Below are positions 14,501-59,100 of a stretch of 64,000 bases of DNA, piece after piece. The first letter of the stretch is position 1. The number at the start of each line of letters is the position of its first letter. Origin of the DNA: Ariolimax columbianus (taxonomy: Eukaryota; Mollusca; Gastropoda; Stylommatophora; Arionidae); contig JAVGWX010000013.1 of NCBI GenBank assembly GCA_036924085.1, forward strand, positions 55,243,904 through 55,307,903. The letters run 5' to 3'. The notes under the pieces were generated by a model. It was not told the DNA's origin and made no database searches. It was given only the letters and a program-made list of their open reading frames with translations. The position numbers and the translations under genes were made by a program.

Positions 14501-17500
14501 TGGCCACATCTGCTCTCTCTGATCCTCGTATGTCGGGCAGTTCTGCAGCAGATGTTCAGTGGTCATTTTACCAGTACCGCACGGGCATTCGTCGGTACAC
14601 CCTATCTTCAATTTGTTGAAGAGGTGGTACCTCAGTCTGTTGTGGCCAGTGCGAAGTCTGAAGACAACGACCTGCTCTCTTCGGTTCAACTGGTAATAGG
14701 CATCGTTTTTGGTGTAACCAGTATGTTCGGTTTCCCATTTGGACATGTACCTGGCTTTGATAAGCCGTTTTGACTCTTCGTACGTCATACTGGTATCTAT
14801 TTGTGGTAGCCTTGCACCTTCTTTTGCCAGTCTGTCTGCCTCCTCGTTGCCTTGGATGTTGCAGTGTGACGGAACCCACTGTACCACTACCCTTTTTGGT
14901 GCGGACTGTTGGCACAGTTTGCAGAGTGCTGCTCTTAAGTCATTAAGCTCAGTGTTTTTCTGGCTTTTTAGCGCTGTGACTACTTCGAGAGCATCTGTCA
15001 GCAGGACTATATGGCTCTCATTTTCACTGTGTGCAATTCAGAACAAAAATATAAACTTCCTGACAGATAGAAAATAAAACAAATGAAGAATTGGAGAGAA
15101 TATGTAACAGATTTACATTACAATTAATATTACACCATTCAAATTGACAAGATTTGTAATGAGTCTGGTTTGGAGGAGTAGAATTATTTGTCAATTGTAA
15201 GGTGTTTAGTGTAGATCATTAATGTGGTAGGTAAGACAGGACTATGAATATGTAAAGACTGCAGTCAAAAGAAAAGTAGATGATTTCAACAAGGATGCAA
15301 TTACACATTAGATTTTTACAATGTTTAAGGCACAAATGAATTTGTTACTCTTCTCAAACTCAGTTACAAGCACAATCTTCAAAATTACTCTTTGGACAGT
15401 TGTAAGAGGCAGTGGGTTTCATTTTAAGAAATCTCATGGCTGCAGGAAGATTGTCTGGAAAAAGTTACACCTGATTGCTGACCGAGGCAGATCCGCTAGT
15501 GAAGAATGAAAGGCTACAATATGATGTATTTGAATTAATCATGGGTTAATGCTCACCACACCTATGAGAAGTTATGGCAATCATTTGACAAGTAAAGAAA
15601 ATGTTCAAGTACCAAAAGGCAATGCTTGTTACTAGTACATGCTGGCAGCAGAGAGGGTGGGCTTGCCTGCAGAGCTCCTTTTCTCAGCAAAGTCTACAGA
15701 TGGTAGGAATTATCACACTGAAATGAATTGATACATTTTCAGAGATTGGATAAAGAACACTCTCCTCTCATATCTTGATAGGCCATCATGCCTAGTAATG
15801 GACAATGCATCTTATAATAATATTGTAGCACAGGAAGACAAAGTTCTAACTTCATCAAGCTCAAAAAATAAAATCATGACGTGACTTGCAAAGGAAATTG
15901 TCTATTTGAAACCAGAAATATTGTAGCTTGTGAGACATGAAGAGGGCAGATGTGTATCTTAGTTCTTCTTAGCCCTTAGTCGACCTGTACTTCTGCAGTG
16001 GCAGATACCCCTGTGCAGGTCCCAGCTCTGGTATGAGCTGGATATAGCGGGGAGAAGGATTTCCTGCTTAGCGGGCTAGGCTTGAGCAGCTTAATACTTC
16101 GCTGCGTTAGGTGGTTAACCGATATGCGAGTTCATCTTAATAGACTCAAACACAAGAGCAAAGTAGACCTGCAGCCTGTGCTGCTCTAAACAAACCACCC
16201 AACCATGGCCGGTGTTATGCTTTGTCACATTATTAGTCGCCTCTTACCACATGCTCTCTGTGAGGCAGTGGTGCTATTCTTGTCCTTGTCATACACAAAG
16301 ACCCCGGCAGACCACTCAGGTACCACATGTGTATCACATTGACCAAATCATTACATAGCTGGGCCACACTTCTCTTCGACTCCACATTACCATTTACACC
16401 TTAATCGAAAAGAACCTTGTGTAGACTTCAATGAAAGGACAAGTGGCCCCACAGAACATTGAAAAGAACCTTGTGTAGACTTCAATGAAAGGACAAGTGG
16501 CCCCACAGAACATTGAAAAGAACCTTGTGTAGACTTCAATGAAAGGACAAGTGGCCGCACAGAACATTGAAAAGAACCTTGTGTAGACTTCAATGAAAGG
16601 ACAAGTGGCCCCACAGAACATTGAAGCTCTTCAACCTGAGTGCTATGGCGATTATACTAGTGGTCGATTGTAGTTTTCAGATGGGCGGTTGCAGAATAAT
16701 AACATCCTGTATTAAAACACAACCTGCGTGAACAATAGCAGAATACCAAGGAACCAACCCAAAAAAAGTGCAAATTTTGAGAACTTGTGCTTATTTTTAC
16801 CGTGGCAGCATATGGCTGTGAAACATGGGCAGTTACCCAAACCTCGATTCCTTCAAGTCAAAATGTTATTAAAAAAACCTCAGAATACATGACCCAAAGA
16901 AAAGAATGCAATCATTCGAGAAGAATTAGACATAGAGGAGAACTGGTTCAAAAGTTTCACCATGAACACAAAATCTAAATACTTTATCCATATCAAAAGA
17001 CACAATGGTCTTGAGAGAACGTTAATGGAAGGTATGGTGCCTGGTGCGGACAAGAATGGCAAAGGCAGACCAAGAAGAAGATGGCACCAATGTGTCAAGG
17101 AATGCTTATGCATTGCTCTGGAGTAGGCAGGAGATTGGGCAAGAGATCGAGTTTTTTACAGATAGGCTGTGGTGAGAGCGACATTATGCAAAGAACACGC
17201 TGCATGATAATTAAAAACATACAAAGCTCACAGACTCAGTGGACGATCACGGAATTTTCTTTAATTTAGATTTTAGTGGGCGATAAGATAAATTTACCGT
17301 CATGAAAGTTATAAAAGTGGGTGCCATGTATAGAAAGGTTGACGAGCATTGATTTAAATTGTATGATGTTAAAGACTTGACATGTCGTGCCCTTTCAAAA
17401 TAGACATTGAGTATTTGAAGAAATGTGAAGAGCACATGCTCCAATAGAAAAAAGACAAACTGCCAGCGAGATGGATTGCAGTTTCTCTAGCCGGTAACAG

Positions 17501-20500: not shown

Positions 20501-23500
20501 TGCCTTATGGCTGCTTCTATATGTTGAATTAAAAAATTGTCAGTTATGCACTTAACAAAAGGTTTTCACTCTACAAGTGCTTCTGCCATATCCTATTTTA
20601 TTTCTGGAAAGTTGAAATCCCCCATTAATAATAATTTCCCTTCACTTGCATTTTCTATGCTACTAATCAGCTCCTCATCTTCCTCTTTTTGACTTGATGG
20701 ACATCTATAGCACACTCCAATCACTGTTTATGTGCACAAATTCCTGAATGAACTGTAATACTGAACTTATAAGTAAATCAAATGGCGAATATAGCGCTCA
20801 GGGAGGGAATAACACGCACAGTACTAACCAGAAAATGATTGGGTCAGGTGTGTTTATTATCACCATATCTATTTAACGCACCTTCATTGATCTGACCAAG
20901 CTATTTGATTTGGTTATCAGGGATGGACTCTCAAAGTCTTCTCTAAAATAAGCTGCCGAAGCAAAATATTGTTCCATGAAGATAAAGGAATTGATGGTAG
21001 CATATCACAACCATTTGGTATTCACACTGATGTTAAACAAGGCTGTGTCCTGGTCCCAACACTGTTTGAAATCGTCTTTGCTCTGTTTCTGAAGCACGCA
21101 TTTGGTAGCACAGATGAAAGAATTGGCTTCACACTCGGTCGGATGGTCAGTTGTTTAACCTTGCAAGTCTCAAGTCCAAAATGAAGATTAGGGAGATTAC
21201 CACCAGGGGCTTGCTTTTCGCTGATAATGCTGCAATTGTCACCTAGAGTCAATAGAAACTTTAGAGCTTGATAGATCGCTTCTCACAGACGCGCAAAGAC
21301 TTTGGTCCCACAATCAGTCTCAACAAAAAAAAATGTGCTGGAACAGGTAGCAGAGGACACACCAACTCTTATCATAGTAGTTATGAACTGGCAGTTGAGC
21401 ACTAATTCACATACCTAGGGTCCCTTAATGACAGCTTTGTCTAGACCTAGTAATAGTCACATTGATAACGCAGCTGCTACATTTGCTCACCTCATAATGC
21501 ATGTTTGGGAAAACTCAGAAACTCACAATTAAAAACCCAAACCATGGTTTACAATGCATGTGTTGTCAGCACGCTCTTATATGGTAGTGAAACTTGGACA
21601 AGCTATGCCAAACAAGAGCAAAATGTGTAACACCTCCTATCTGCAATGCCTCGAGATCCATTCTTGGAATTACATGGAGAGACAAAGTGACAAATGCAAA
21701 GGTGCATTCTCCCACCAGTCTCCCAAGTATGTAAAAGTAAAGTAACCCATAGCGTTACTGATGTACGGGTGTGAGGTGTTAGCGATCTCACATTTCAAAG
21801 GCTCGGCTATATGAGGGCGGTAGCCATTTCCTCCCCCTCGTCGCTTTTACTTCCAGGGCTGAACCGGTACCCATTTAAGGCTGGGTCGACCCGGCAGCTG
21901 TTGTGGTCTGAAAAAACATTTCCGTTTCAACTAGGGAATGAACCCAGGCCCACTCAGATGCGAGGCCAGCTCGCTAACCACTGCACTGCGCGGCTTCAAG
22001 TATGTACACTCTCCTTAAGCAGCAAAGACTACGATGGCAGATGGTCATATTCCCAAAGATATCATCTATGGACAGTTGGCGGATGGCAAGACAACAGTCT
22101 GTCGACCACAGCTGAGGTTCAACGATGTGTGCAAACATGATATGAAGGCCCTGAACATGAGTGTTTGACAGCCTGGGAAGATGAAGCTGCAGACCAATCC
22201 AAGTGGAGATTTTCCCAGAAGAGCCACCTCATAATTGATGAAAAGAAGTTCTTGCAACACAGAGAAGTGGAAAAAACAACGTCGCAAGGAGAAAGAAAAC
22301 GTAAAAATGCTAAGTAGAAAATTGCCACTCCAAGGTCTTATTACCATAAAGTCAGCCATGACTGAAAGAGACTACTACTGCTATTTAATGCTCATTCTTC
22401 ATTTGTGGATGACCAAAACAGAGAAATCATTACTTACAACATCTACTCATCAAGATCAGCAATACATTCCGTATTAAGATAAATGCTAGTAAAATAAAAG
22501 CGATGGTATGAGTCAAAACAAATCCAAAAATATAAATATTGAATCATGGGATAGACCATAAAATAAATTCTGAGGTTTTAATATGTAGGTCAAATTGTTA
22601 CAGAGGATATCCGTTGGTGAAGTTTAATACAGAACCAGGATCGCAGTAGCATTAGAGGCATTCCATGAGAAACAAAAACTGCTAACATCAAGTGACATCA
22701 AGGAATCACACCTTTATCCCAAACACAGATTTTGCCAAAGAGGATATCATACCCACAGACTGGATAGGAATGTACATAAGGGTGACGTGCTTATCCTCTT
22801 TAAAATATTGATACCTTCAAAGGTGATCTCGGTAGAAACTAACAGAGAAACCAAAACAAGCATTGATGTCTATGGTCTGCTTTAAGAGCTGGTGCACAGG
22901 GACATCCTCAGCAAATAAAAAAACAAAAAACTAACATTACATTCATACCATCCTCTGTTATCAATGTCAGACACGGATCCTGACCTCGGCCGAAGACTGA
23001 TGTGTCGGACCGAAAGGTGCAAATATCGCAGTCAAGCTGTAAACTAGCGACACAGCACATTTTGTTCTCTGGACTATATCCTGTTACTTGCAAAACCCTT
23101 TTCAGGGCTTGATAGTGTGAGATTGAGAACGAACGTAGAAGAAGAAGAATCCTCTGACCAAGGAACAAGAATGAAAGATCATAACATCTGAAATGAGATA
23201 TTTGCGAAATACACTAAGGGTCTCTAGAAGAAAGTGAGACATTAGAAAATACACTAAGGGTCTCTAGAAGAAAGTGAGACATTAGAAAATACACTAAGGG
23301 TCTCTAGAAGAAAGTGAGACATTAGAAAATACACTAAGGGTCTCTAGAAGAAAGTGAGACATTAGAAAATACACTAAGGGTCTCTAGAAGAAAGTGAGAC
23401 ATTAGAAAATACACTAAGGGTCTCTAGAAGAAAGTGAGACATTAGAAAATACACTAAGGGTCTCTAGAAGAAAGTGAGACATTAGAAAATACACTAAGGG

Positions 23501-26500
23501 TCTCTAGAAGAAAGTGAGACATTAGAAAATACACTAAGGGTCTCTAGAAGAAAGTGAGACATTAGAAAATACACTAAGGGTCTCTAGAAGAAAGTGAGAC
23601 ATTAGAAAATACACTAAGGGTCTCTAGAAGAAAGTGAGACATTAGAAAATACACTAAGGGTCTCTAGAAGAAAGTGAGACATTAGAAAATACACTAAGGG
23701 TCTCTAGAAGAAAGTGAGACATTAGAAAATGCACTAAGGGTCTCTAGAAGAAAGTGAGACATTAGAAAATGCACTAAGGGTCTCTAGAAGAAAGTGAGAC
23801 ATTAGAAAATACACTAAGGGTCTCTAGAAGAAAGTGAGACATTAGAAAATACACTAAGGGTCTCTAGAAGAAAGTGAGACATTAGAAAATGCACTCAGGG
23901 TCTCTAGAAGAAAGTGAGACATTAGAAAATACACTAAGGGTCTCTAGAAGAAAGTGAGACATTAGAAAATGCACTCAGGGTCTCTAGAAGAAAGTGAGAC
24001 ATTAGAAAATACACTAAGGGTCTCTAGAAGAAAGTGAGACATTAGAAAATGCACTAAGGGTCTCTAGAAGAAAGTGAGACATTAGAAAATGCACTCAGGG
24101 TCTCTAGAAGAAAGTGAGACATTAGAAAATTCAACAGTAAGTGAAAATAATGCAAATGTATAACAGAGAATTAAGTGCTTTGGTTATATTACAAGAATAT
24201 CTCCAAACCTACCTTTTGGATGAGCTTATAACTACAGACAGCAGAGTTTTGTAGCAAGATGTAGACCCAAGAAAAAGGTGGTTTGATGGTGATAAAGAAA
24301 CACTACTCAACAGGATTGAAAATATCAATTGCGTCACAGATAGTAAATGAAAGAAGACTGCACCTCCCCACGACATGTAATGACTGAAGTGTACAGATGA
24401 GATGAGTAATATTTGTATGTTGGATATAGCCAATAGACATCATCATCGTTCCCTTTTTACTCAATTTGGAACATGTGACCACCAATGGAGATGACCTCCT
24501 TGCAGGAAGTCTGTGTCAAAGCAATTATTTGTTGCAGTAAGTCCTCTTCAATGAATGATTGCAATTACACAATAATGATAGCCATTAAGTATAGGACAAT
24601 TTTCTTTCTTAGTTGCCAAGCACTAGCCATTATAACACATAGCAAGTATGAGTAGTTGTTACATGTAAAACTGTTTGACAATTAATTTGAGATGTCTGAA
24701 CTGTGATTCATATACAATTAAGTCTTTCATATTATTGTTCATGCAGATGGGCAGTGTCATCAGTAATGACCAGGCAGAATCCAATACCTGCTAAGGATGG
24801 TTCCAGATCTACTCTAGGACTAATTCCTCTATGGGACATGTGTAACCATGCCAATGGTGTTGTGAGTGCAACAAACACATTGGAAATATTCTTTTGAAGT
24901 TACATAGACAATTATGTAAAGAAGCTATTTGCTCCTCCTTCATCCAGGTCATTTAGTTGTGCATTTCTTTGAATAGCTTCATTGGTTACGAGCTAAGAAC
25001 TGCTGCACTAATCAGCTTCATGTGTCATGCCTTGTGGTATTGATGACCAAGTTCATTCAAATTCATCTGTTTTTGAGCATTTCAAATGTTCTCTGTTTTC
25101 TTATTTAGCTTGTTATAGCATTCTAAATGTTTCTTCTCTGTTGTCTGCCCATCTTGCCCTTGATCTTTCCAGTTGTTACTGGGTTTTCAAGGTCACCTCA
25201 TTTAAATTTTACTTCTGGTCCTTTTATTTTAGTTGGCTGGATTTGAATTGTAAGACTTACACGTGTTTACAGTTTCTTAGAGATTGTGAATCTGCTTACA
25301 CTAAGCAGGAGCGGCGGCTTAACACCTTTCACATGATGTGCGTAGGGCATATGGTGTGAATTTGGTGGCAAAAGAGATTGCCACATAATGTGATTTTATT
25401 GTGAGCAAACAATCCCAGCATGTACTTGCTGTTGAGTGAACAACATCTTAGATGGTTGGGGCATGTTTACTGCATGAAAGATGAGAGGCTACCAAAGGAT
25501 ATCTTCTGTGGACAGCTGGCCATTAGAGTTAGAAGAATTGGCTGTCCTACGGATCGAGCTGTTTGGAGACAGTCAGTTGGAAGGAGCACAGTGGCTGCTG
25601 TTGCTTGTAGAGGCTTTCTGGCTGCAGAGAAAAGAGAATGGGGGACACCGCAGTAAGCTAGCCTCCTCAGGATGGTTGTATGATTTGTGGCAGGGACTGT
25701 CATTCGCGGATCGACCTTTACAGTCATAGGAAACAGTGTCAAAATATGACAGGGCGCCACGCACATGGTCTACAGATACTGAGGCGCCAATGATGATGAT
25801 TATCTTATATTCTTGATTGTCATTGCAGACATTATCATTAACATTTAGCAGACGCAGCCAAAAACCACGATTTTACACGCTATTTGTCTACAAAAATGTT
25901 CACACCTGACAGCTGTGACAAAATTATTCATATATCTTATCTTTTATTGTGTGATCATGTTTTATATATCAAAATGTTCAGCAATGATTGCTTTTTTTTA
26001 GAAACAGTGCAATAAGATGTCTGTACAGTGAAGTTGCATGCAAAAAATGATGTAATGAGTAAACAAAAATAAAAACAATAAATAATTTGTAAAACATTTT
26101 TCACTTACCATTTCATTCAAATGAATCCTTCACAATGTTGACACACAAAAATTCTTTCTTTTGTTAGTATATCCATATTTACACAATATTGGGAAGTTTC
26201 ATCACTCTTGGATTAGAAATAACAGCATTATGACCATTGAGCAGTGTTTGGTAAATTGAAAAATAAAATGGCACAAATTCTCTAAGAAAAAAAAAATTAT
26301 CTATGTACAGCTGATTTTAATTTGCATTTATTTTAAATGATGCTGTTCAAAACAGTGATTTGGATGAAGAAATGGCTGGTCTGGGCATCCTTGACAAAAC
26401 AATGTTGTCCTAACTCTCACATTTGGAGTACTGCAAACAATACATTGACGACACAGTGTAGACTTTTTGATGCGTCTTTTTCCACTGTGTCTGTTTGCAT

Positions 26501-29500
26501 GGCTGCTGATGTAAGGTTCCACCTGCATGCTAGGCGTCTCTGTAGCTGCAAAAAGGCGAAGCTCAGTAACTAATTGCCTTTTAAATTCTAGATAGGGCTG
26601 CTTTTTTGTGTTTGCAGACCTGGTCAGGGCATGCAAAATAAATGAATTCAGCTGAGCTACTTCAAAAATCCAAAAGAAAATTTTCTTCCACCATTTCCTT
26701 GTTCTTCTAGTGAAGGTACCATATGTTGCGACACACTGATCAACCTTATCACACCCATTCATGCGGTAGTTGTAGTCATCAATCATTGATGGTTTATCCT
26801 TCACTACTCCAGAACGACTTGTTAAACGTTTGGTGGTCACCGAGGCTTCACTAGAGACAAGCAAGCAGGCTTTTTTAGCCTTCTTGTCTCTGAACATCAC
26901 GCAGAGGAATGTTCTTTCTATATGGAGAAACCATTTCATTTTTAAAAAGGACAATTTTGTTGTCTTGAAAGTTTGTGGAAAATCTCTGGGGTTTATGTTG
27001 ACCATACCAGTGTGTAGTAATGGCCATTACTGGTAAGGTACTGCAGCAGCGGATAGCTGGTGTAGTAACGGTCAGCATAAATGTGATGGCCTTTCCCACA
27101 AGGTTCTAAAAGCTTGTCAAATACTTTGACGGCTTGTTGACTGCTTGGATCTAGATCTGGATTGTAAGATGTATTGCTGCCAAAATATATCAATATGTTG
27201 ACAACATAAGCAGTGCTGCTGTCGCAGAGGCCAAAGGTTTTGACGTAGTATTTTTTGGGCTTTGATGCATTGAACATCTTATGGGCCCACCTTCCCTTCC
27301 ATCCAATGACCATTTCATCCACAGAAAGTTCCTTGAATGGGTAATAGGATTTTTGAAATTGAAGTAGCAAGCTCTGTACAAATGGCTCAATTTTGGCTTT
27401 GCCCAGCGAATCAGGATCACTTACGTGAAACATTGTATGGTACAAAGCTTTGAACCTTTTCCTCGTGAATACCTTCCTGAACCAAGGTGTTTCTGTAGTC
27501 TCATCATGTGCCCAGTAGTCACTAATTTTAGGCTTCTTTAAATAGCCGATAACAATAATGACAACAAAGAATTTATGTAGCTCAGGCACAGTCACTGGTG
27601 ACCATGTTAGAAAAACTGACCGTACCGCAATTGTTTCTTTCATTGCCAGGCACCGTTGGGCCGCATAATCATTTACTGGCCTGACAAGGTCGTCCATAAT
27701 GGCATCAGTAAATAAAGCTTTAAAGCAAAATAAGGGTGATGCATTCTCTGGAATAATGTCAGGATTGACACCAGGGATTCTTGGCTGAGGTGGAATAAAC
27801 CGAAAGGTATTGTCTGTGCTGCCCTCAAATACCTCCCTCCATTGCCCCTCATCACTAACCTAGTAGTTGCCATTGGAACAGGAAACACTGTAGATGGATC
27901 TACTGTACTGCTGGTACTAGTACTAGGCCTAGGACCAGGATTCCTATCAAATACAGATCTTGACCTTGCTCCTTGTCCTCTCTTAGGCATAGGACCTTTA
28001 CCATTTCCTCTATTATGGATGAGAGACTCGCCTCCTCTTGCTCACTCGAACTATCCCTGGTGGCACTGTACAATGATGTATTTCTAACATCCCCTTCTTC
28101 TGAAGGAGAACTTTTACTGTCAGAAGTCATGTCATCTGTATCTTCTTCAGCCCAGATTTGAATCATCTTAGTGGCCTGAACAGCAGAAAATCGTGCGCCA
28201 TGAGAATTGGTAGAGGAAGCCATTTCTTCAAATAAAAAAAAGTTGAAAAAGATTGCTACTTTTGTGAGATTATTGAACAAAATGTGCCAAATTACTTCTC
28301 AAACACTTAACAAAAACACGTTGTGAGATCGAAAAAAGGACAGGAAGAGGAAATGACATTGCAGTAGTTTAAAATGTTGGACAGGAAATAAAAATATTCA
28401 AAACATGGCGTTGGTACATTTCGAACGACAACGCCCATTTTATGGAAACAAAATATCACCGACGCACTTTCCGATAAATGAATATTTCCTTCTGAATTAG
28501 AACTGTCCATGCTTAATAATTCTTCATCTACATGTCTATCTATTTCAAGTCATGATTGAATTATCTGTGAGACATGGGGAATTGGAAGGGAGGATGCCAT
28601 TTCTTCAAGTAAAAAAAAGTTGATAAAGTATTTTTGTTTACATTTTCATTTTTTAATTTAGTAGTACATAATTGATAAATATGTTAACTCATGCTCTAGA
28701 AATGGAATCTGAAATCGCATTGTTGTGTGTTTATACTAGCTGGATTTGGATTAAACCCATATTAAATACATTTAATACGTTGCAAAGAGTGGCACCAGTT
28801 CATGTGGCGGAATGTTAAAACAGGACTATCTAATCGACAAATGACGTGGCGTGGTGTCTTTTAAGGGTTAATGATTTCTCAGCTTAGCTAATATGAAGCA
28901 ACCATAAAGCGCATGTGTGCATGTTGAGGCGCCCCCTACCCCATCCAGACTTAACTGATTTGAGCTACACACAAAATTAGCTGAGATAGTAAGAGATAGT
29001 TATTCAATGCCTTTCTCCATGTAAATAAATGTGTTTTCAGTATACATCTGACTACAATGCAGAAGAGGATGCATGCCAGTGCTTTTGTCTGAAAGATTGT
29101 TTCACTGGTCAGCAGGTTAGTGGAGTCCTATTGAGTAAGCATATAAATGTGTCTTTGCCTAGCAGTATAACATATTTGAGACCTTTTCATAACAAATACT
29201 ATAATCATGTGAAGCATTAAATGATAGGAGGACATTTTCAGTGTTAATTAATACTTCAATATTTCTTTCATTTCATCTGTAATACATTTGCATATTGAAA
29301 TTGCTCTTTCCCAGATTAACTGAATTATAAGAATCAGTTATATTGCATTACAGTGCAAAAATCTAATATTGTTTGCAATTTGACAGATCTTCATCTTCTA
29401 TGGGCCACGCTCAAATGGAGAATTTCTTGTTCACAATGGTTTTGTCTACCCAGAAAATGAACATGACAGGCTTTGTTTCAAGTTAGGTGAGTCCTTATTT

Positions 29501-35500: not shown

Positions 35501-38500
35501 AATATTCAGGTTTTTAACTTTTACACATTATTCGTATGTATATCATGTTTGACTGGTCTTTTTTACAACCATAACAAGCCTTAATGAAATGTCAAATGAT
35601 ATTGTCCCTTCCATTGGACAGAAATCAATAAGCATCTACACATTCCTATTAGAACACTGAAAACAGCCGTTCTTTCTGTTGGGGAATGAATCAATCTGTG
35701 GTTCTCTGAAACACGTTTCAGTATCCAGGAAACACTTGGGAGTCACCCATATTTGATATCATTCTAGACTCTTGTTGTAAAAGGTTCTTCAGTAACGACA
35801 GGGGAAAAAATCTGATGGTCATAGAAGTTTGAACACCTAAAAACACTGGGATAAAATCACTATCCTTTTCGAGTTTGCCAAGTGGTTTCACAGATATACC
35901 TTTACGCTGGAGCAAATCCTCAGCATTTTTTACTGAATGAAGTAATCAAAGTAAAAGCAGTGAAATTTATCAAGGTAATTAACTGCTTTATCGATTACAA
36001 CGTTATGATTATCGCTTATGCTATACTGCAAGGGCTCATTTACGTTTCCAGCGTAGAACCTAAAATTCAGCATGTAGCCAGTCTTGACTTCCACAGCAAG
36101 GCAGGCTTAGGATGAATTGCCATGAAATGATGAATGTATAGCTTTAAAAGAAGCCTGCCATTGAAAATAATAATCATTGCTTCAAAACGTACAATGGGTA
36201 CATGTCTGTCAGGTTTGTGAACAGAAGAGCTAGTAGCTTCTAGGCATAGACCACAGACAGGACGATGGATTCTGTGAAATTTTCAATATTCATTTCTGTC
36301 AATCCGTCACTCCAGGCTTAGGCACATTAGCAACAGTCTTAACTACGATATCCATTTCAGAATCTCCATCACGTCAACATTTTCAATAACAAGAACACTG
36401 ATGTCCTATTCAGAATCACTGTCTTCGTCACTACTGGGATTTCTATCATTATTAAGTACATTTCCCATGTCCCGAAACCTTTCATTGAAATGGCAAAAGT
36501 ACAAATTTTCACAGATTGAAGATGAACTTTTAAAACTCATAAATGTCATTATGTAAACACTAGCGATGCCATGTTGGTCTTAAACAAAACAACATCCTGC
36601 GAGGTTATTAAAAACATGGATGTTTCGTTTTCTGCAAAATTTGATCATGTTGTATCGATTTGAAAACAATGGTTCTCAAAGAGCATTTTTGGGCACGTTA
36701 GGGTGTTGGGCTATATAAAAACATTGGGTGTGCTATGGTGTAAAGGGTTAAGTCATGTATAATTAGTCAAACTGAGTATTGTAAGACGTTGATTAAGGCA
36801 TGTTTAAGTTAGTATTAGTATAATTAGTCAAACTGAGTATTGTAAGACGTTGATTAAGGTATGTTTAAGTTAGTATTAGTATAATTAGTCAAACTGAGTA
36901 TTGTAAGACGTTGATTAAGGCATGTTTAAGTTAGTATTAGTATAATTAGTCAAACTGAGTATTGTAAGAAGTTGATTAAGGCATGTTTAAGTTAGTATTA
37001 GTATAATTAGTCAAACTGAGTATTGTAAGAAGTTGATTAAGGCATGTTTAAGTTAGTATTAGTATAATTAGTCAAACTGAGTATTGTAAGACGTTGATTA
37101 AGGGATGTTTAAGTTAGTATTAGTATAATTAGTCAAACTGAGTATTGTAAGACGTTGATTAAGGCATGTTTAAGTTAGTATTAGTATAATTAGTCAAACT
37201 GAGTATTGTAAGACGTTGATTAAGGCATGTTTAAGTTAGTATTAGTATAATTAGTCAAACTGAGTATTGTAAGAAGTTGATTAAGGCATGTTTAAGTTAG
37301 TATTAGTATAATTAGTCAAACTGAGTATTGTAAGACGTTGATTAAGGCATGTTTAAGTTAGTATTAGTATAATTAGTCAAACTGAGTATTGTAAGAAGTT
37401 GATTAAGGCATGTTTAAGTTAGTATTAGTATAATTAGTCAAACTGAGTATTGTAAGACGTTGATTAAGGCATGTTTAAGTTAGTATTAGTATAATTAGTC
37501 AAACTAAGTATTGTAAGACGTTGATTAAGGCATGTTTAAGTTAGTATTAGTATAATTAGTCAAACTGAGTATTGTAAGACGTTGATTAAGGCATGTTTAA
37601 GTTAGTATTAGTATAATTAGTCAAACTGAATTAAATACTCCATTAAGGGTTAAGTTAGTGCCAGTAAAAGTAGTCACACGCAGTATTGTCTGGAGTTGAT
37701 CAAATAAATGTTTAAATTAGTGCCAATATAAGTAGTCAAACTAAGTATTGTAAAGAGGTGAACAAGTCATATTTAAGTGTGTGCCAGTAAAAGTAGTCAA
37801 ACTGAATATTGTAAGGAGTTTATTGTCAGATTTACATTAGTGCCAGTATAAATAATCAAACTGAATATTGTAAGGAGTTTATTGTCAGATTTACATTAGT
37901 GCCAGTATAAATAATCAAACCGTGTATTGTAAGGAGTTGTGCAAGATGTAAGTAAATTACCTCATGCACTGTTAGTTTCATGTTTGTCAAACATTATAAT
38001 GTAGCTGTCATCATCATCATCATCTGGTTGATCAGTCCGCAGACTGCTTGTAGGGTTATCTGAGTATGTATTCTCTATTTGACCCTATCCTCTGCAGTTC
38101 TCTTCATTGCAGCATAAGTTCATACTTTAATGAAATGTAAAGGTTTTGTCTTAGTTGCCCTGGTCATCTCTTCTCTCGAATCTTACTCTCTAGTATCTTC
38201 AGTAGAAGAAGGCTTTCATGTCTCATATTGTGACCCAGCCAACTCAACCGACGAATTTGTCTTTGTGCCTCCACTACTTCCTGTGGCAATGCATTCCAAG
38301 CATTCACCATTCTCTGACTAAACAAATATTTCCTAATATCTAATCTGGACCTTTCTTTAGTTAATTTGTAGCTATGTCCTCTTGTTCTTGTAGGTGGTAA
38401 TTTTAAAAAAAAACTTGTTATAGTCTAATTTATCCATTCCTTTGATTCTTATAAAACTGTAATTGTCACATCAAATTCTTCTCTTTTCTAGATACTGTAG

Positions 38501-44500: not shown

Positions 44501-47500
44501 TGTCCTCAATTTTAGCTCCCCCAATATCCATTTTTTCAAACATTTTGTGTTGTTTAGACAAATGTCTGTCAACCTCTCTCATCATTGAATCCCCTACTAC
44601 CAACACTGAACCCTCACCTGTATTTGCATACTTCTCTGCAAAGCTCTCTGCCCCATGAACTGTTTCCTCACTAGAATCTCCCTTACCTCCTATTTCCTTC
44701 TCTAACCCATACCTAACTGACAACCCATACCTAACTGACAACCCATACCTAACTGACAACCCATACCTAACTGACAACCCATACCTAACTGACAACCCAT
44801 ACCTAACTGACAACCCATACCTAACTGACAACCCATACCTAACTGACAACCCATACCTAACTGACAACCCATACCTAACTGACAACCCATACCTAACTGA
44901 CAACCCATACCTAACTGACAACCCATACCTAACTGACAACCCATACCTAACTGACAACCCATACCTAACTGACAACCCATACCTAACTGACAACCCATAC
45001 CTAACTGACAACCCATACCTAACTGACAGTGGTTTTATTTTATCACCTTGACTACCCAACTGCAGTTTCTTTAAAACTTCTTGTTTCACTTCTATTTTGA
45101 ACTGCCTTTTTTTCTATCTCCTCCAATCTCTTCTCATGTGTCCTAATATTGCACTTCATTCGAGCCTGCCTCTCTTCTACTCTACATAACCTACATGTAA
45201 CATTTACTTCATCTTCCAACGTTGCATCTATTCCTACACTAATACTAACATTGCCGCCGCACAAATCACACACTGACACTACTCTTCACCACATTTCCCC
45301 TGGTCTTAGCATCATACTAATTATGTTATTTATTACAGTTACACTCCCTAGCCAATAAGCTATGCTAATACCTAATACAATATATATTTGTTCTAGTAAA
45401 CACCAAAAAAAACCAATGTTGTTGGTACCTTACAACTACTCTCACAAAATACTAGACCTACACATAACAGTTTACAGTACAGACAGTTACTACAGCTCAC
45501 TATACCATGATATTTAATTATGTAAAATCTCTATCTGTTACAACCAGACCTCTATATTTGAAAATATGTATGCTACAGTAAACTACAATTACAACTATGT
45601 TATTTTTACACATTAATTCTCAACACTAATACTTATCTGCATATATATTGATCTCTGTACGGTCAATCCACCGTAACTGTCCAACATGAAAAATTAATAA
45701 AAATTAATTAAATTTAACGTAACTGTCTAACCCTGATTTCGGTCATTAATTCTCTTTTCACCCCCAACTTTTGAATACCTCCAAATTTGTTTTCTTCTCT
45801 TTCCAAGAAATGCGACCCGATCTTCTATATACCCAGATTTCGAAGGCTTCAATACTCTTTTCCAACTTGTTATTCATTGTCCATGTTTCTGCGCCATAAA
45901 GTAGTGATGATTATACATATCACCTGACAATTATCATTTTCAAATTCTGATTTATCTGTTTGAATGTCAGTATGTGTCGCATGCTGTTGAATACCATCTT
46001 GGCCATACCTATTCTCTTTCTGATTTCCTTTTCACAGCTGCCATCTTCCGTTATTATATGACCTAGATAGGAGAAACTCTGTACCTGTTCAAGTAGTTGA
46101 TCTTTTATTTTTATCTGCATACATAGTTTCTTGTCACTTTTCCCAATTATCATAGCCTTTGTTTTCTTTATGTTTATGTCTAATCCAAACTCTTGACTTA
46201 TTGTGTACATTGTTGTCACAAGCTCCTGTAATTCTTGTTCACTTTTTGCTATAAAAACTGTGTCATCCTGATATCTTAGATTGTTCATTTCCGCTCCTCC
46301 AATGACAAGCCCTGGCATCCCCTCTATCTGTTTGAATATTTGTTCTGTGAAGATATGAAAAAGACAATGGTATAATACACATTACACTTTTTACATCTAT
46401 ACTTGGAGAGCATAACTTTCCTGATTTTACTGTAGCAGTTTGTTCCCAGTACAGATTACAGAGCAGTCTTATGTTTTTACCATCTAGACATATTTCATGG
46501 AGACATTTAATTAATTTTTCATGCCGTACTCTGTCAAAAGCCTTCTGGTAGTTTATAAAGCAAATTTAAATGTCATTATGTATTTCTATATATTTTTCTG
46601 TCACAGTTCGCAAACAGAAAATAGTAAAGATTAGATCACTTACTATCACCTTATCCAAGTATTTATCTGTGTTCTGTCTGTTTAAAGTTAAATTTGACTT
46701 ATCTTCTTATATATTATTACTTCTTTGCAGGGATAAGTAAAGATGACTCATTGTATGCACTGAAATCTGAAGTCTTAGAGAAGCTTAATATTGCACCGTA
46801 AGTATGACATGTTTTATTATGGTTATTATTTATTCAGAGGGGACATCAACATTTTATATACTTTCTATTTTAAAATATTGCTATATATATCATATTAACA
46901 CCATCTTTTCCAACAGGTTTTGTGTTAACTCATTCACTCTGGAATATTTTGGACCTATGGAAGCACTTTTATTTTCTTACATAACAAATCAAGCACAGCG
47001 TCACTTTAAGTGTCACTTATTTATCTTCAGTGAAGGTTTTATGAAGTACCACATGATATATACTAAACTGTTTAGAATTAAATGCAGAATACAATTGACT
47101 ACAGACACTTAATATTCCTCTTTTTCTGTGAATATTCCTCATTTTGACTGGTACTTTGAATTCTTCAATTAAGTCTGCTGTCCTTTTCAGGGTCTCAATA
47201 TCGCCGTACGGTTTCTTCTCAAGGGGAATTGACATGAACCACATCCTTCTCCTCAGATCAGTGTGCTTGGGCAATCCTTAAGTATATGTGTCACTCGGTA
47301 TGGAGAAAGGCTTTTGAGGAAAATGGGAATAGAAGGAAAAATGATCAAATGGATACAAGCTTTCCTGACCAACAGATACGAACTTTGCAAGTGCAACATC
47401 AAGTAAAAGGATGCTGGAAGAAGGACTGCCACAGGGCTCTCCTCTAAAGCTCCACCATTTTTCTCATCTATTTAAATGACCTCACTAAAAATCTAAATGT

Positions 47501-50500
47501 TTGTTGATGACTCTCACCACTGGACTACTGGAAAAATATCAAATTTTGGCAAAAGCCAAAATCAACAGAGCCCTACTAACAATTGCAGTATACTAAACTG
47601 TGGAAACTAAAGATAAATACACAGAAAACTGTATGCACCATCTTCTCCCACAGGCATAAAGAAGCAAAGAGATTCATTAACATCAAAATGAATTGAGAAT
47701 CACTAGTAAAAGAGGATACCCCAATTTATCTGGGAGTAACACTGGACAGACAGTTAAAATTGGACAGTTACATCCGCAATCTTAGATTTAAAGCAACCAA
47801 GCGTTTAAACTTAAGAGGCTCGCTAGCACAAATTCAGCAGCTGATAAAAAAACACTTTAGCAGCTATACCTTGGATATGTACAACCAGTGATGGTCTATA
47901 GCCTTCCAATAACATTTTATCTATTGACGGTTCAGAATCAAGCTCTCAATAATAATTTCAGGGAGGGGGGTTTAGGAGATGAAATCAGCACCTACAGCAG
48001 CGTGTGTCCACTAATTGAAGCCGCAGAGGGAATACAAGAGACAAGAAAATGGTCATCCAGATAGGGTACAAATAGATTCTTGGAAGCAAAAGAGAAGACT
48101 GAAGCAATGTCCTCACTGAATATAGCAGAAGAGGAAAGCCATATTCACCATCTACCAGAGGAGAGAGAAAAGGAAAATAGGTTTTTTGACCACCCACTTG
48201 GGAAAATCTTTTCCTGCCAGTCATAAAAACATACCTGCTAGAAAAGGCAGCCACCAAGGAGACTAGACCTACTTTCCTGAAGACATGTGGAGACAGTCTC
48301 TAGCTACCCAGAATCAGCAGTCCTGGTCTATTGGGATAGATCAACATTCAAATCTACCTTTTTTTTGCAGGGTATGGGATCCATATGAAATACTCAGATG
48401 GGTCCAAATATAATTTTTTAGATTCATGTGGCAAAAACTGTGCAAATGATGAAGTGGAAGCCAAGGCTATAAAAACATCAGTTGAAATTTTGTACCAACA
48501 GTTTGACTTTGGCAAATTGATGCTGATGGACACTGTGGAGCGCTTGGCCGAATAGTTTCAATGTCTGTCTGCTGATAAGGAGGGCAGCGTGTTCAATCCC
48601 AGGGATGCCAAGCATGGACTGGACCCATGCATACACCGACGGTTCTGTAACAGACACTACACAGAACGGAGGGGCATGAGCATTCCTGAACCTACCAAAT
48701 GGCAGAAAAATAACACTGTCATTCGCTACTGGTAAGTACACAAGCAATTTCAGAGCGGAGGCAGAGGCACTGAGGGCGGCAAATGAAGAAATGGTGACAC
48801 ATAAAGAAAATGAAAGCCATATAGTCCTGCTTACAGATGCTCTGGCCGTAGTCACAGCGCTAAAAAGCCAGAAAAACACTGAGCTTAATGACTTTAGAGC
48901 AGCACTCTGTCAACTATGCCAGCAGTCCGCACCAAAAAGGGTAGTGGTACAGTGGGTCCCATCACACTGCAACATCTAAGGCAACGAGGAGGCAGACAGA
49001 CTGGCAAATGAAGGTGCAAGACTACCACAAACAGATACTAGTGTGACGTACGAAGAGTCAAAACGGCTTATTAAAGCCAGATACATGACCAAATGGGAAA
49101 CCGAACATACTGGTTACACCAAAAACGATGCCTATTACCAGTTGAACAGAAGAGAGCAGGTCGTTGTCTTCAGACTTCGCACTGGCCACAATAGACTGAG
49201 GTACCACCTATTCAACAAATTGAAGATAGGTGGAACCGACGAATGCCCGTGTGGTACCGGGAAAATGACCGCTGAACATCTGCTGCAGAACTGCCCGACA
49301 TACGAGGATCAGAGAGAGCAGATGTGGTCATCACCAGTGGAACCACAAGACAAGCTCTATGGCAGTGTCGACAGCCTCAGGATGACCGCCGCTTTTTTTG
49401 AAAAAATAATGGTTACTGTCTGACTGCGTACGAAGAAGAAGAATCCCAGGGATGCATATATTGTTTTTTTGTTGGCGGTATAATAAACAAACATAGCCAG
49501 CACACGACGTGGTGGCGAAGAGGCCTGTAGTCCTCAGCCTAAAAACTCCAGCAATGGGGATAAAGTCGTACAACAATTTTTTAAACACTGATTTTTAGTG
49601 ACTCCAAAGCTAAGCACACCCCATACAATACAAAAGAGATATTTTTGGTGGGGAGAGCCATCAACAAGACTGTCACTGCTCACAGGATTAATGTCCCCTT
49701 GCAATTGATTCCTAGACATAGTGGACTACCAGGAAACGAGATGACTGACAGACTGGCAAAAACAGGAGCCTCCAAACAACAATTGGATAGACCCTGCAGT
49801 AACCACACAATAAAACAAATTATTAAGAATATACCAGGGAAATCTGGATGAGCAGGCAGGCGATGGGAACAACAGGTTGCAGTGTATTTTGCAAAATGTC
49901 ACAGCCAAAAAGTAATGATGACATAAATAAATTACATAGAAGAGATCAAAGTCTCATCTTTCAGTTCCGAATAGGACACACCAGAGTCAATACCAATTTG
50001 AACCCCATCAATCCCCAGCACCTGCCCCTGTGCAGACATTGTTCTCTTCCTGATGAAACAGATACCTACTCATTGAGTACAAGGTGCTTGCGGATATGGG
50101 GAAAAGATTCTTACAAGCACTACCGACAATTGCCAACACACAGTACGGAGCAGTAAAACAACTGAAGAAGACCTGTATTTATATTAGAATGGCATTGGGC
50201 TGCCAAGAGCAGGCTTGTTCAGCAGCTGTGGTATAACAACAACAATAACATATATTTTCGACTTCCACATCACATTTCTGGTTAATGTCTGGCTGTTTTG
50301 ATGCTGATATATCTATTTGGAGGCCCTCTTTATATCTTCTTTTTATGTTTATCATAATAAAGTAAATCTGATTATTTATTTTGTCTCATGTATTTAGTTT
50401 TCTTGCAGATTGTTGAAAAAATGTGTTACAACTAAGTAGTTCTCTGCGCAAAAATGTATTGGCTTATGCTTATGTTTATTTTGTCCAGTCCAAATTGTCC

Positions 50501-53500: not shown

Positions 53501-56110
53501 AGCTTATTGAATTGCATTTTTGTTTGGTGATTTCATTGTTTTGATAATCCTGCCAGTAGGTCTCATGAATAAAAATGGTGATAGAGAATCCTAGCCACAC
53601 TCCAGTTCTTATATAAAAGTGCTAAGAAAACTGTCATGTATTAATTTTACTAGGTTAGTGAACATTAGGGCACTCCCAAAGTGTCTTAGCAATTTCCATA
53701 GCAATTCTCTGCCTAAACTGTCGAATGCATTTTCAAAGTTCACAAATTTTATATAGAGCAGTGAGTTGAATTCCACACTTTAACTATTATTATATAGAGC
53801 AGTGAGTTGAATTCCACACTTTAACTATTATTCTCAGTGCAGCTGTCTGGTCTATTTTGTCCAAAACCTGTTTGTCCTTCTACTACCCCTTTTGACCTCT
53901 CTTTTATCATCCTACCATATTTATATATGGAAAAAAGTAAGACGCTGTGCCTTAACGGTTGCGCTCTTGACTCGCGGTGGTGTTTGTGTCATTTTCTGAT
54001 GTTTGGTGGTTCCTGTTTGGATTATATTGTACAACTCCTTCACCAGGTGGTATCAAGGACTTTATTCTCTGGAATTGATGTGATTTCGATTGGGTATCCT
54101 GTTTGTTGTGCTGCATTTCACGCATGGCTTAATTGGTGGGAGACCAGTCCACGATAGAGTTCAACATTCCGCTTAACTGGACACAAGAATACAGTCCAGG
54201 TTACCACGACTCAAGGACCTTTCTGCTCGGATTGAAGGCGACTTTTTCCTGCCTGCCGTAGGTCACACGATACACAATCAGAAGCCTCGGCGGCGAGACA
54301 CGTAAAAACAGCGAGTTTGACACTGACAGACATGGAAAGCCTGACACAAACATTGGTTTAATACACTCCTCGTGGCCCCCATCCCAAGGCAGCGGAGTAC
54401 TCAGGTCCACCTGGGAAGTCTAGGGATTTCGGTCAACACACTACGCATGAACACAGCCTCAGCAGTTGAACATGATAGTGGTCCAGCAACGCAACTGGCC
54501 TTTGACGCCTACGCTAACATTATTATTATATTTGTATAACATCTATGGGGAATGTATAATGAGACACGTTAGAGAAGACGAGAACATTGAAAGTTTTGAT
54601 CCATTTACAATTGGCAGTTACGAGATTCCAGAATTACAATACGCAGATGATACAGCGATACTATCAACAAATGCAGAAGGGCCAGAGCAGCTACTTTCGG
54701 CCGTAAATGGATACTTCTTCTTCTTCGTACGCTGTCAAACGTCAACCTGTTAGGTTGTGACGTCATCATACAGTGATATACGTTGCACTGTTTCGTTAAG
54801 CCTATGGCCCAGTGCATCCGATTTCAACAGGCGTTTCTGTAGGGATGCCCTCCTTAGCCTTTGGCTGCCTATCTGCAAGGCAGCAGTTGTTTGTGGTCAG
54901 AGTTGTCTCTCTTTGGGAAGTTGTCTTACAGGACTATCGAGTCTTCCCCACTCGTGTCTATAGGGTGTGGTGATGATATGATAGACTGTATGTGCTGGTT
55001 TTTCAAGTATCGCGGAAGAGAGGCAGTCCAGTGTGTCTGTATCCCAGGATCGTCACGTCCTGCCAGAAACGTAGCATATGCATGTGAGTAGGGTATCTCC
55101 TTGCTCCGTTTATTTTCTCAGCTCCTCTGCAGTGATGGTACGCCTAGCATTCCCTGCCACCTGGGAGGTTGTCACAATAGGGCAGAGGTGCAATGTCCGC
55201 TGGCCTGCATCTCTTCTGCGTCCATTGGGATGACTGATAGCAGACAGAGGTAAAGAACGAGGCAGGAGTGCATTTAACCAGAGGACAAGCCTGGTCATGG
55301 CACGGAAATGTTGTTCGCCTGGTGTGCGGACATATCTCATGTTCAAGGGCTGAGTCTCAACAGTTCGCAGTGAGGTGGCTGCGCTACTGCTTACGACACC
55401 CCGACCGAGAACTAAGTCTTCTACTAGTGGTTTCACACATCAACGCCGTATGGGGTAAATATCGAGCAGCTCCCCACCCGCTTTGATCGGCGGGACGGCA
55501 GAGACCTCTTTCTGCGGCTCGACCGGGTCGGGCTGAGACGCGAGCCCCAGGTCCCAACCATATCGTTGCCTCCCGTTGCAGTGGTGCTGAGATTCAGGGT
55601 GGGATTCCAGCTTAGAGGCGTTCGGCCGTAATCCCTCAGATGGTAGCCTCGCTCCATTAGTTTATCAGCCAAGCACGTGGACCAAGTGTCTGAGATCTGC
55701 GATTCCTCTCGAATTGAGCAGGATTACCGTAGCAACCCCCTGTTATTAGTAGGGTAAAACTGACCTGTCTTCCGAGGGTCTAATACCAGCACCCGTTCAC
55801 TATTAGACCCAACGAATCAAGAGAGAGCTATTAGTCAGTCAATGACCAAGTGTCTGAAACCTGCGATTCCTCTCGGATTGAGCAGGATTACCGTAGCAAC
55901 GCCCTGTCATTTGTAGGGTAAAAGTGACATGTCTTCCGAGGGTCTAATTCCAGCACACGTTCCCTATTAGACCCAACGAAAGTGCTCTCGGCCTGTCAAT
56001 CATTTCAATGTTGGCGTGTTAAGTCAAATTAAGGAAAGAGCTATCAATCTGTCAATCCTTACAGTGTCCGGAACGGGTGAGTTTTCCCGTGTTGAGTCAA
56101 ATTAAGCCGC

Positions 56111-56159
<49 letters not shown>

Positions 56160-59100
56160 TTTGCAACCATACTTCCCCCGGAACCCAAACACTTTGGTTT
56201 CCCGGAAGCCGCCCGCAGAGTCATCGAAGCAACTCCTGCGGATCGCTAGTCGGCATCATTTATGGTCAAAACTACGACGGTATCTGATCGTCTTCGCGCC
56301 TCTGACTTTTGTTCTTGATTAATGAAAACATTCTTGACAAATGCTTTCGCAGTAGCTCGTCTTGCTACGATCCAAGAATTTCACCTCTAACGCCGCAATA
56401 CGAATGCTCCCGTTAATCATTACATCCAGTTCTGAAAACCAACAAAATAGAACCGAGGTCCTATTCCATTATTCCATGCACCATTATTCAGGCAGCCGAG
56501 GCCTGCTTTGAACACTCTAATTTTTTCAAAGTAAACGCGCCTGCCACCCGGGACTCAGCGAAGAGCATCAGCGGGAGAGGAGAGCCGGTAGACGGTAGGG
56601 CAGGAGACAACGGGCAGTGAACCGGCGCGAGCCGGACCCCCCGCCTGCGCCTGAGATCCAACTACGAGTTTTTTAACTGCAACAACTTTAATATACGCTA
56701 TTGGAGCTGGAATTACCGCGGCTGCTGGCACCAGACTTGCCCTCCAATAGATCATCGTTAAAGGGTTTAAAGTGTACTCATTCCAATTATGGGGCCTTGA
56801 AAGAGTCCTGTATTGTTATTTTTCGTTACTACCTCCCCGTGCCGGGAGTGGGTAAGTTGCGTGCCTGCTGCCTTCCTTGGATGTGGTAGCCGTTTCTCAT
56901 GCTCCCTCTCCAGAATCGAACCCTGATTCCCCGTTACAAACATGGTAGGCATGTCACGTACCATCGACATTTGATAGGGCAGACATTTGAAAGATGCGTC
57001 GCCGGCACATGAGGCCATGCGATCAGCACAAAGTTATCTAGAGTCACCAGTGGGGACGCCGCAACCCCACGAGGGGAAACGACGATTGGTTTTGAACTAA
57101 TAAAAGCGCTCTTTCCGCGAGGGTCGGAGCTTGGTAAGCATGTATTAGCTCTAGAATGGCCACAGTTAGCCAAGTAGGCTTGTTCTGTTCCTCACTCCGT
57201 CGACCTAGGACCGCCTGGACGGGGGCCCCCGTACACACACCAACCGACTGGCCGGGCTCGATCGGGGAGGGATGGCAGCGCTCTGAGCAGAACGGATCCC
57301 AACGGCCCCGGCAAGAGTTTTCACTCGGACTGGAGATGATTTTTGCCTGCCGGCTTGCCCTTCTCCGACCGGTTGGTCGGGCGAGGACAGGGCCTTTAGG
57401 CACGATTCCTGCTTTCCATTTGCCGGTCCCAAGCTCATTGCGAGAGAAGGACCTCAAGCGAGACGAACTGTCGAGATTGGCTATACGCGCTAGCCTTCGA
57501 CAAACCACACGGACTGACAAAGCTTCTCGATACGGACTACAGTAACGCACTGTTACCAGCAGTACGATGCCACCAAATTGGTCCTGCTAGAGTGCCGGGG
57601 AGAGGCGGGCGAGCTTGGTAGGCGAGCCTTGCTCTCACTCCATCTGGCGGGACTGAGATCGCTGTACGAACACTGGATGCGAGCCAATCGAGCCACCGAG
57701 AGACTAGCCCCAGATCGTAAATGGATACAGTAGAGATCAAAACCTGTGTATAAACATAAAGAAAACAAAGATAATGACCACCGACAAAACATGATGTCAA
57801 CATACATTTTTCAGTAAGTGGTATGGAAATAGATCAGGTCATGCATTTTGAATATCTGGGCTCCAGAATTGACCAAAATGGCGACTGCTTCAAAGAGATC
57901 AGAAGTAGACTAGCCATAGCAATGCAGAGGCTGAATAGCCTGAAGAGACATGGACATTTACAAAAACATCTAAAAAAAAGAATAAAGTACTTTGATTAAA
58001 ATGTTACAGAAAGATTCTCAGAATACCTGGACGGAGAAAAAGAAAAATATAGACATTCAGCAAGAGTTGAACATGGAGCAGAACTAGCTTATCAATTCCA
58101 TTTTGACCAGAAAAATGAAATACTTTGGTCACATCAACAGACGCAACGGACTTGAGATAACAGTGATGGAAGGTATAGTGCCAGGACAACGAGGCAGGAG
58201 TAGACCAAGAAGGCGATGGCACCAATATATCCAGGAATGCCTGAGTATGAATGTGGCGAAGGCTGGAGTTTAGAAAAGGGAAAGAGTTTATTTCAGACAG
58301 ACTGTGATGGGAGCAATGTTCTATAAAGGACATGATGATGATGATGAGTATGATCCTTTTCAATATTTTTTCAGGATAACATTATTCCTCTGTAATTTGT
58401 GTACTGCAAATGACCATTTTCTGGCAGCTTGACCACTATCCTGACATTTTTAATCCTTGGATTTTACAGAGTAATTTATATAATATCACTGTTCAGGTGC
58501 CGGTGTCTGCTTTGATTTCCTCTAATGAAATAATACTGAAATACTATTTTGGCAAGATGCTTTACTTTATCTTAGAAGTTTTATTACATACTGTTTTTGT
58601 TTTGTTTGTAAAAATGAACTTGTAGCTCAAATTCTGCAAGCTGAGTGTCTTTGGGTGCTTGTGTGGTCTATTTAAAAGCTCTGCCCATCTCTTCAGTTGT
58701 TTATTTATGTTGCGAAGCAATTTTGCCTGACGCACGCCTTTAGCACGCCACACTGAATTTTTGAAAATTTTTCACATTTCTCAATTTTGCAACTTTCAAA
58801 AATTGTAACTGTTCTGTTTGTTGGTCAATAAATATGATTTTCTTGTGTTTAGAGACACAATTGAATAAAGAACTTGTTGATGTTATTGTTGTTGGTGTGT
58901 GTTTGTTAGTTTCTGAGATACAAGAAGATGAATGTGAAATTTTTTGAAAAAATTTAAATATTTGAACTTTCCCGGCTAGGCCTAGTCTCTCCGATAGAAA
59001 ACCATGGAAACCATAACAAATAATCGATACTGTGTTTACAATATCGACACAACTGTTAGTTTCCAATTCAAGCGTAGTTCTTTCATCTAAACAAATAAAA

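Follow-up and report, generated by a model that had tools for sequence, protein, structure and literature searches.

How an insert built largely of ribosomal RNA (rRNA) sequence came to lie inside a reverse transcriptase (RT) frame, and what kind of mobile element it represents, are the questions raised by a locus of the slug Ariolimax columbianus, in a 64,000-nucleotide stretch of assembly GCA_036924085.1 (contig JAVGWX010000013.1, positions 55,243,904 to 55,307,903 of the forward strand; hereafter the window). The insert occupies window positions 54715-57715 (3,001 bp, minus strand) and is flanked by a perfect 13-bp target-site duplication (TSD; CGTAAATGGATAC, 54702-54714 and 57716-57728); read by eye, the RT frame is broken by the insert, with YADD before it, and resumes past the second TSD copy. 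The analysis identifies the rRNA block as the 5' region of a protein-coding long interspersed nuclear element (LINE) family, equipped with endonuclease, RT and RNase H, and of its short derivatives. The window copy consists of the LINE 5' region joined to about the last 36 nt of the LINE, and is thus an internally deleted LINE copy and not a classical short interspersed nuclear element (SINE). A first-pass annotation, made from the letters of the sequence, had fixed the borders by the TSD and proposed an 18S/28S chimera on the minus strand with a GAA tail, moved as a retroelement; both proposals are borne out by the TSD, by Rfam and by the identity of the 3' end with that of a LINE.

The borders and parts, in element order (element coordinates run from E1 at window 57715 to E3001 at window 54715), are as follows.

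57716-57728, plus strand: TSD on the 5' side of the element, 13/13 identical to 54702-54714.
57180-57715, minus strand: host 5' external transcribed spacer (ETS) from the probable +1 to host nt ~519 (E1-E536; E1 = ATCTGGGG), by alignment to the host ribosomal DNA (rDNA).
56034-57178, minus strand: 18S rRNA, host nt 134-1294, 95.6% identical to host 18S; also by Rfam.
56030-56038, minus strand: junction of 18S nt 1294 with an older part of the element, CTTAATTTGACTTAACACG; a single genome match.
55332-56033, minus strand: 18S fragments of an older layer, and 28S rRNA over roughly its final 600 nt, by Rfam, repeat and sequence comparison.
55680-55816 and 55844-55980, minus strand: 137-nt tandem repeat within the 28S part, 92% identical, spacing 164.
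54747-55331, minus strand: ~585 nt whose origin is unproven, from the end of the 28S part to the point where LINE copies start their protein.
54715-54750, minus strand: LINE 3' end with a (GAA)4 tail at 54715-54726; 37-nt match, 100%, to LINE copy L048.
54702-54714, plus strand: TSD on the 3' side of the element, 13/13 identical to 57716-57728.

On the minus strand Rfam recovers 18S rRNA (RF01960, E = 2.1e-220) and the 3' end of 28S rRNA (RF02543, E = 2.2e-33), and at E ≤ 0.1 nothing beyond these except a sub-threshold match to mir-1207 on the plus strand. The earlier estimate of the 18S segment, nt ~120 to ~1300, was right as to its presence, with the range now set at host nt 134-1294. Around the ETS/18S boundary the window copy is missing 224-245 nt present in seven other near-complete copies. 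It contains one open reading frame of at least 150 aa (57044-57550, within ETS/18S sequence) and encodes no endonuclease, RT or RNase H; its final 36 nt and one TSD base make up the 100% match to the 3' end of L048. The 28S part and the ~585 nt that follow it are accounted for only in part, and for the latter 3' ETS and a remnant of LINE protein are both candidates. By eye, 11 residues bear a weak likeness to RKPTPKTDSLGQ of the protein relatives P0006 and P0013, which favours a LINE origin for the very end of this stretch only; that end may, on this weak likeness, code for the C-terminal end of an upstream LINE protein now lost.

A search of the genome (2.29 Gb, 401 contigs) with the insert returned 124 matches including the window, from 40 scored of 11,340 candidates. 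In most scored copies the 5' part is missing, which is what 5' truncation would produce, and among 14 loci inspected at both ends six start exactly at E1 and two more within 3 nt. Full copies run from the first base of the ETS through ETS, 18S and older 18S/28S sequence either into an endonuclease-RT-RNase H region followed by (GAA)n or into a short tail, the window insert being of the kind that runs directly to the short tail without protein. When 33 distinct places were read, 20 continued into LINE sequence (two assigned by eye), 12 were short (one by eye) and one was unassigned. Reading frames were examined in six copies, and Pfam detected Exo_endo_phos(_2), RVT_1 (twice) and RNase_H in four of five translated pieces from L045, L047 and L049, with no match in the fifth. 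The endonuclease part has 80 protein relatives, and the six of these that are named by organism are all from molluscs. We take the LINE, an APE-type non-LTR retrotransposon, to be I-like.

TSDs were present in 11 of 12 copies tested, ten found by script and that of L002 by eye, and were seen by eye in two further copies with a second type of head (type 2, described below), L053 and L055. The 12 tested copies sit in different flanks. The start sequence of the first type (type 1) has 1,374 matches genome-wide, at least 100 of which are scattered over contigs C1-C17, and the type-2 start has 1,231; both counts take in internal tandem start units (two matches lie 194 bp apart on C2) and are not copy numbers. 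The 3' end of the short type, ATCGCTGTAACCAGCGTACGAAG, has 5,403 matches at ≤2 mismatches, upstream rRNA heads not being part of this count, and reversed-pattern controls gave no match for either start or for the short 3' end. Divergence of the eight near-complete copies is 3.4-6.0% from the consensus and 6.7-10.4% between copies; of their 974 non-consensus variants, 857 occur in one copy only, a star-like pattern. Single-copy status was rejected, the family being multicopy with the same anatomy, and TSD-bearing copies at unrelated places argue against a lone rDNA pseudogene or assembly artefact. An rDNA-specific LINE of the R1/R2 type does not fit: the flanks are dispersed and lack the fixed rDNA site of such elements, in a comparison of loci outside the rDNA arrays.

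Some copies carry 193-bp tandem start units, each combining ETS 1-50 with a piece of 18S and one of 28S (L010, L013, L016, L037 and C12:45349058-45349470). These units resemble the 5' monomers of mouse L1.

As regards class, the downstream coding of endonuclease, RT and RNase H, the TSDs, the 5' truncation and the fixed 3' tail are those of a LINE, and the window copy is SIDE-like in that both its 5' and 3' ends are common to protein-coding relatives. It resembles a SINE in sharing its tail with a partner LINE and in coding for no protein of its own; however, its head is not a small RNA transcribed by RNA polymerase (Pol) III, Rfam assigning 18S/28S and the head being 5' ETS. ARAGORN found no tRNA in the window, a tool that also missed the nearby tRNA-like SINEs. 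A SINE head was therefore rejected, since the head is host 5' ETS and the rRNA block heads protein-coding LINEs, and the SINE-type architecture of the first-pass annotation gives way to that of an internal-deletion derivative of a LINE. The deletion joint, CCTAACAG followed directly by GTTGACG, occurs exactly at four places and with one mismatch at six more among 100 listed of 155 matches (≤3 mismatches); the other matches listed are, by appearance, mostly LINE 3' ends with another left side.

The head, formerly described as unknown, was placed by comparison with the host rDNA, which was located via the 18S 3' end. That end occurs at 30 places, of which 22 lie on the large contigs C1-C22 and eight on small ones. 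Over its whole length the family head can be aligned to the host 5' ETS, with 492 of 616 positions identical, and the 18S part of the family consensus is identical to host 18S at 1234 of 1237. E1 falls 634 nt before 18S, where the host sequence reads GTATATT immediately followed by ATCTGGGG; a TATA-like motif thus adjoins this base, which is probably the RNA polymerase I (Pol I) start (+1). The host rDNA start, taken together with the sequence upstream of it, matches 129 places; among the 100 listed all are exact, 98 lie on small contigs, and neighbours are mostly about 12 kb apart. One host rDNA unit was read and contains a complete 18S. Two exact matches to the start and its upstream sequence lie off the rDNA contigs (C10:58993494 and C12:62836861), and are possibly stray rDNA pieces or source loci.

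The rRNA sequence of these elements is layered. Among the Rfam capital positions in the stretches compared, 14 of 109 are changed in the 28S part and 5 of 179 in the 18S part, the host 18S giving the latter figure too; the 28S part thus looks older than the 18S part. The heads themselves fall into two types. Type 2, in four copies, matches the host at 578 of 617 ETS positions (93.7%) and 1238 of 1239 18S positions, and type 1 at 495 of 613 ETS positions (80.8%); type 2 agrees with the host but not with type 1 at 83 ETS sites, and with type 1 but not with the host at 25. A type-2 query of 1,891 bases matched itself and 39 others at 96-98% (all of the 40 scored, out of 2,766 candidates), 36 of the 40 from the first base and 33 over the full length. 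In L053 and L055 a fresh ETS-18S segment stands ahead of an old start unit that is now internal. Because the ETS of the two types lies at different distances from that of the host, pre-rRNA was probably captured at least twice. Copies differ from their consensus by 3.4-6.0% in type 1 (whole 5' region) and by 2.2-3.5% in type 2 (ETS), while the host ETS differs by 19% from type 1 and by 6% from type 2; the host ETS would thus seem to evolve at a few times the rate of inert copies.

In both types, and in L056 and L059, the old element takes over from fresh rRNA at the sequence ATTTGAC, which corresponds to 18S nt 1226. At the main joint the rRNA side is ~1225, and this joint falls in 17 nt common to 18S and the element. 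L056 reaches the joint only after the 18S 3' end and 110 or 111 nt of internal transcribed spacer 1 (ITS1), and goes on into the LINE protein region; L059 joins from ITS1 nt 70, L038 from 18S nt 529 with one T fewer, and the window copy from 18S nt 1294, four bases further out. A type-2 joint pattern requiring a non-A left base matched 135 places, of which 100 were listed: 38 have a left context in host 18S, 13 show the main joint altered at one base, one is element body and 48 are other; shuffled contexts (five shuffles each) matched as closely in 4 of 500. All 38 host-18S contexts are in sense orientation and fall at eight positions (nt 39, 135, 224, 414, 562, 670, 912 and 1397); the 48 others, 47 of them distinct, may on our reading be copies that start exactly at the joint base. 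In all, 11 rRNA-side positions meet the element at exactly this base, and 13 within four bases of it, in 18S and ITS1 and on the sense strand. The genome-wide search with the insert proposed in the first-pass annotation did yield many related copies; the window's own nt 1294 joint, like that at ITS1 nt 111, has one genome match at ≤3 mismatches. A pre-rRNA, or an element with longer rRNA, is needed only by the joints at 1294 and 1397 and the two ITS1 joints.

L038, in its oriented coordinates 256-2994, is a type-2 short element with a TSD, ACCCTCGGAA, seen by eye; its insertion point is the exact border between the 28S piece and the old start unit of another copy. The main joint lies near the 18S base that is hypermodified in yeast and human. 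We do not claim this base as an RT stop, the joint being about 6 nt off by count.

We consider it likely that these elements form a LINE lineage with a host pre-rRNA 5' region, acquired when the RT jumped off the LINE RNA onto pre-rRNA and copied to +1. During target-primed reverse transcription (TPRT), the LINE RT would leave its own RNA at the ATTTGAC point, jump onto pre-rRNA and copy to the +1 end; some of the resulting chimeras could themselves be transcribed and become new source elements, and the window copy would derive from a chimeric RNA that lacked the protein-coding middle and that the LINE machinery mobilized in trans. A near-fixed donor point, many acceptor points, one +1 end and sense orientation fit such a jump, and the ITS1 joints suggest that the unprocessed precursor was copied, unless insertion into rDNA came first. 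We also lean, less firmly, towards a lineage that repeatedly renews its 5' end from nascent or unprocessed pre-rRNA, so that its promoter-proximal sequence would track the evolving rDNA, perhaps with Pol I or nucleolar transcription.

The main rival puts insertion into rDNA first: an element with a fixed 5' end would have inserted at various rDNA sites, been co-transcribed by Pol I with ETS-18S(-ITS1) and retrotransposed as read-through RNA, the joints being its former insertion sites. This accounts without template jumps for the constant +1, the near-constant element joint and the variable rRNA joint; the 47 distinct other left contexts at the element-side base among the 100 listed agree with it, and R2 is made from a 28S co-transcript (PMC3414825). 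However, it requires two steps and the loss of each rDNA insertion, even for joints found once, and the main joint lies within the 17 nt shared by 18S and element, as homology-led switching predicts, and we judge it unlikely. A single capture of ETS-18S-28S, diversified later by deletions, unequal exchange and gene conversion among copies, would draw on the rearrangement visible in the tandem 193-bp start units and internal repeats, and could explain the joints before nt 1226 as deletions; the two ETS types at different distances from the host, and the joints that lie past the main one, at 18S 1294 and 1397 and in ITS1, make it quite improbable. The first-pass annotation had offered a choice between a new rRNA-headed SINE family and a lone template-switch product. 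A multicopy family there is, with template switching as its likely origin, but the choice was a false one, large types existing beside single-copy joints. The 12 short, protein-free places among the 33, the 5,403 short 3' ends and the single match of the window joint speak for that pair of readings, whereas the protein-coding LINE copies headed by the rRNA block, along with numerous start sequences, refute it as a complete account and leave it scarcely credible.

Several points weigh against pre-rRNA capture by an RT jump, the reading that we prefer. Transcription from E1 and RT jumping are both steps that we infer from sequence, and the near-fixed element-side joint is not explained by them. 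The joints of the window, L038, L056 and L059 are single cases each, and those of L038 and the window lie off the exact element base; L011, which also aligns to host 18S nt 1294 (gapped, 88.7%), was not counted, an old 18S-like fragment being present there. For joints upstream of 18S nt 1226, a jump or a deletion inside element RNA would suffice. The copy-end reading of the 48 other left contexts was made without a TSD check, and three of the 48 are within ≤2 mismatches of rRNA or element sequence. Among copies, L012 has no TSD, the script match for L002 is off the ends, and L054 shows neither tail nor LINE match in the 6 kb read. The start counts are inflated by internal units, and the short 3' ends were counted irrespective of head. 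Four of the 22 large-contig 18S 3' ends were read, of which L056 and L059 join the element and L057 and L058 continue as ITS1 only (450 nt), being either longer captures or dispersed rDNA. Finally, the 19% gap of the type-1 ETS, set against 3.4-6.0% among copies, must mean a host ETS changing several-fold faster or another source of the ETS, and a foreign source is possible.

Elsewhere in the window lie two tRNA-like SINE copies (11560-11820 and 12960-13170, minus strand; head GGGGACGGCGTGG by eye), which share with the LINE 5' region just ahead of its protein a motif of ~30 nt, GTCGGATGCACTGGGCC. The body motif that the insert had been said to share with the local SINE does exist (11695-11725), and is short (31 nt, 87%). 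A related, 5'-truncated LINE occurs at 14381-15022 (minus strand) and 48608-49443 (plus strand), 85-89% identical, the former copy having a 50-bp tandem array after its GAA tail. Two overlapping frames at 26328-27697 (minus strand) resemble what we take to be a piggyBac-type transposase, and tandem arrays (unit length 12-61 bp, 91-100% matching) lie at 582-748, 4096-4470, 13980-14376, 23207-24130, 36757-37874 and 44704-45028.

How LINEs acquire new 5' regions is an open question, and this family offers a rare view of mobile elements gaining new front ends: a single genome records the donors, the joints and probably no fewer than two captures, and the known landmarks of the acceptor (+1, 18S, ITS1) allow jump sites to be mapped exactly. 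The ETS copies are in addition fossils of older rDNA spacers, and the family raises the question of whether a Pol I start region is functional inside a dispersed mobile element.

Among known systems, SINEs derived from 28S (SINE28) are short and are not known to form part of a LINE 5' region. The window copy resembles them in having rRNA at the 5' end of a non-autonomous retroelement, as does the 5S-headed SINE3 (PMC10886601). The 5S head of SINE3 is a Pol III gene, and neither SINE28 nor SINE3 is known to have ETS or 18S. Judged by titles and abstract openings, searches of a collection of open-licence papers yielded no LINE family with a pre-rRNA 5' region; for molluscs, an octopus paper deals with RTE and Dong LINEs (PMC9115989).

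RT jumping has been proposed both for R2 (PMC3414825) and for L1 (PMC13174262), and template jumps to U12 snRNA and tRNA are described at R2 5' ends (PMC3414825). The SIDEs of R2 and R2/R1 likewise join LINE 5' and 3' ends and move in trans, but occupy fixed sites in rDNA and have a ribozyme 5' end, whereas the slug elements are dispersed (PMC3414825). In Magnaporthe, the WEIRD/Mg-SINE/MGL chimeras (33 bipartite elements and one tripartite, the latter flanked by 14-bp direct repeats) similarly reflect one or two switches of template during LINE reverse transcription, the first template being left at specific sites; they involve other RNA, and the abstract describes no family renewed at its 5' end (PMC2104539). 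Chimeric LINE-1 insertions with U3, 5S, 28S, tRNA and other RNAs resemble the slug elements in having a non-LINE RNA attached 5' in the course of TPRT, in their TSDs and, for 28S pieces, in a mostly sense orientation (PMC13174262). Such chimeras have been speculated to supply new LINE-1 5' UTRs (untranslated regions), whose abrupt changes in primates are of an origin only speculated on (PMC13174262). The 28S/LINE-1 chimeras number 18 loci with a median of 269 nt (PMC13174262); in contrast, the slug types are headed by a +1-ETS-18S precursor and have more than 1,000 start matches each.

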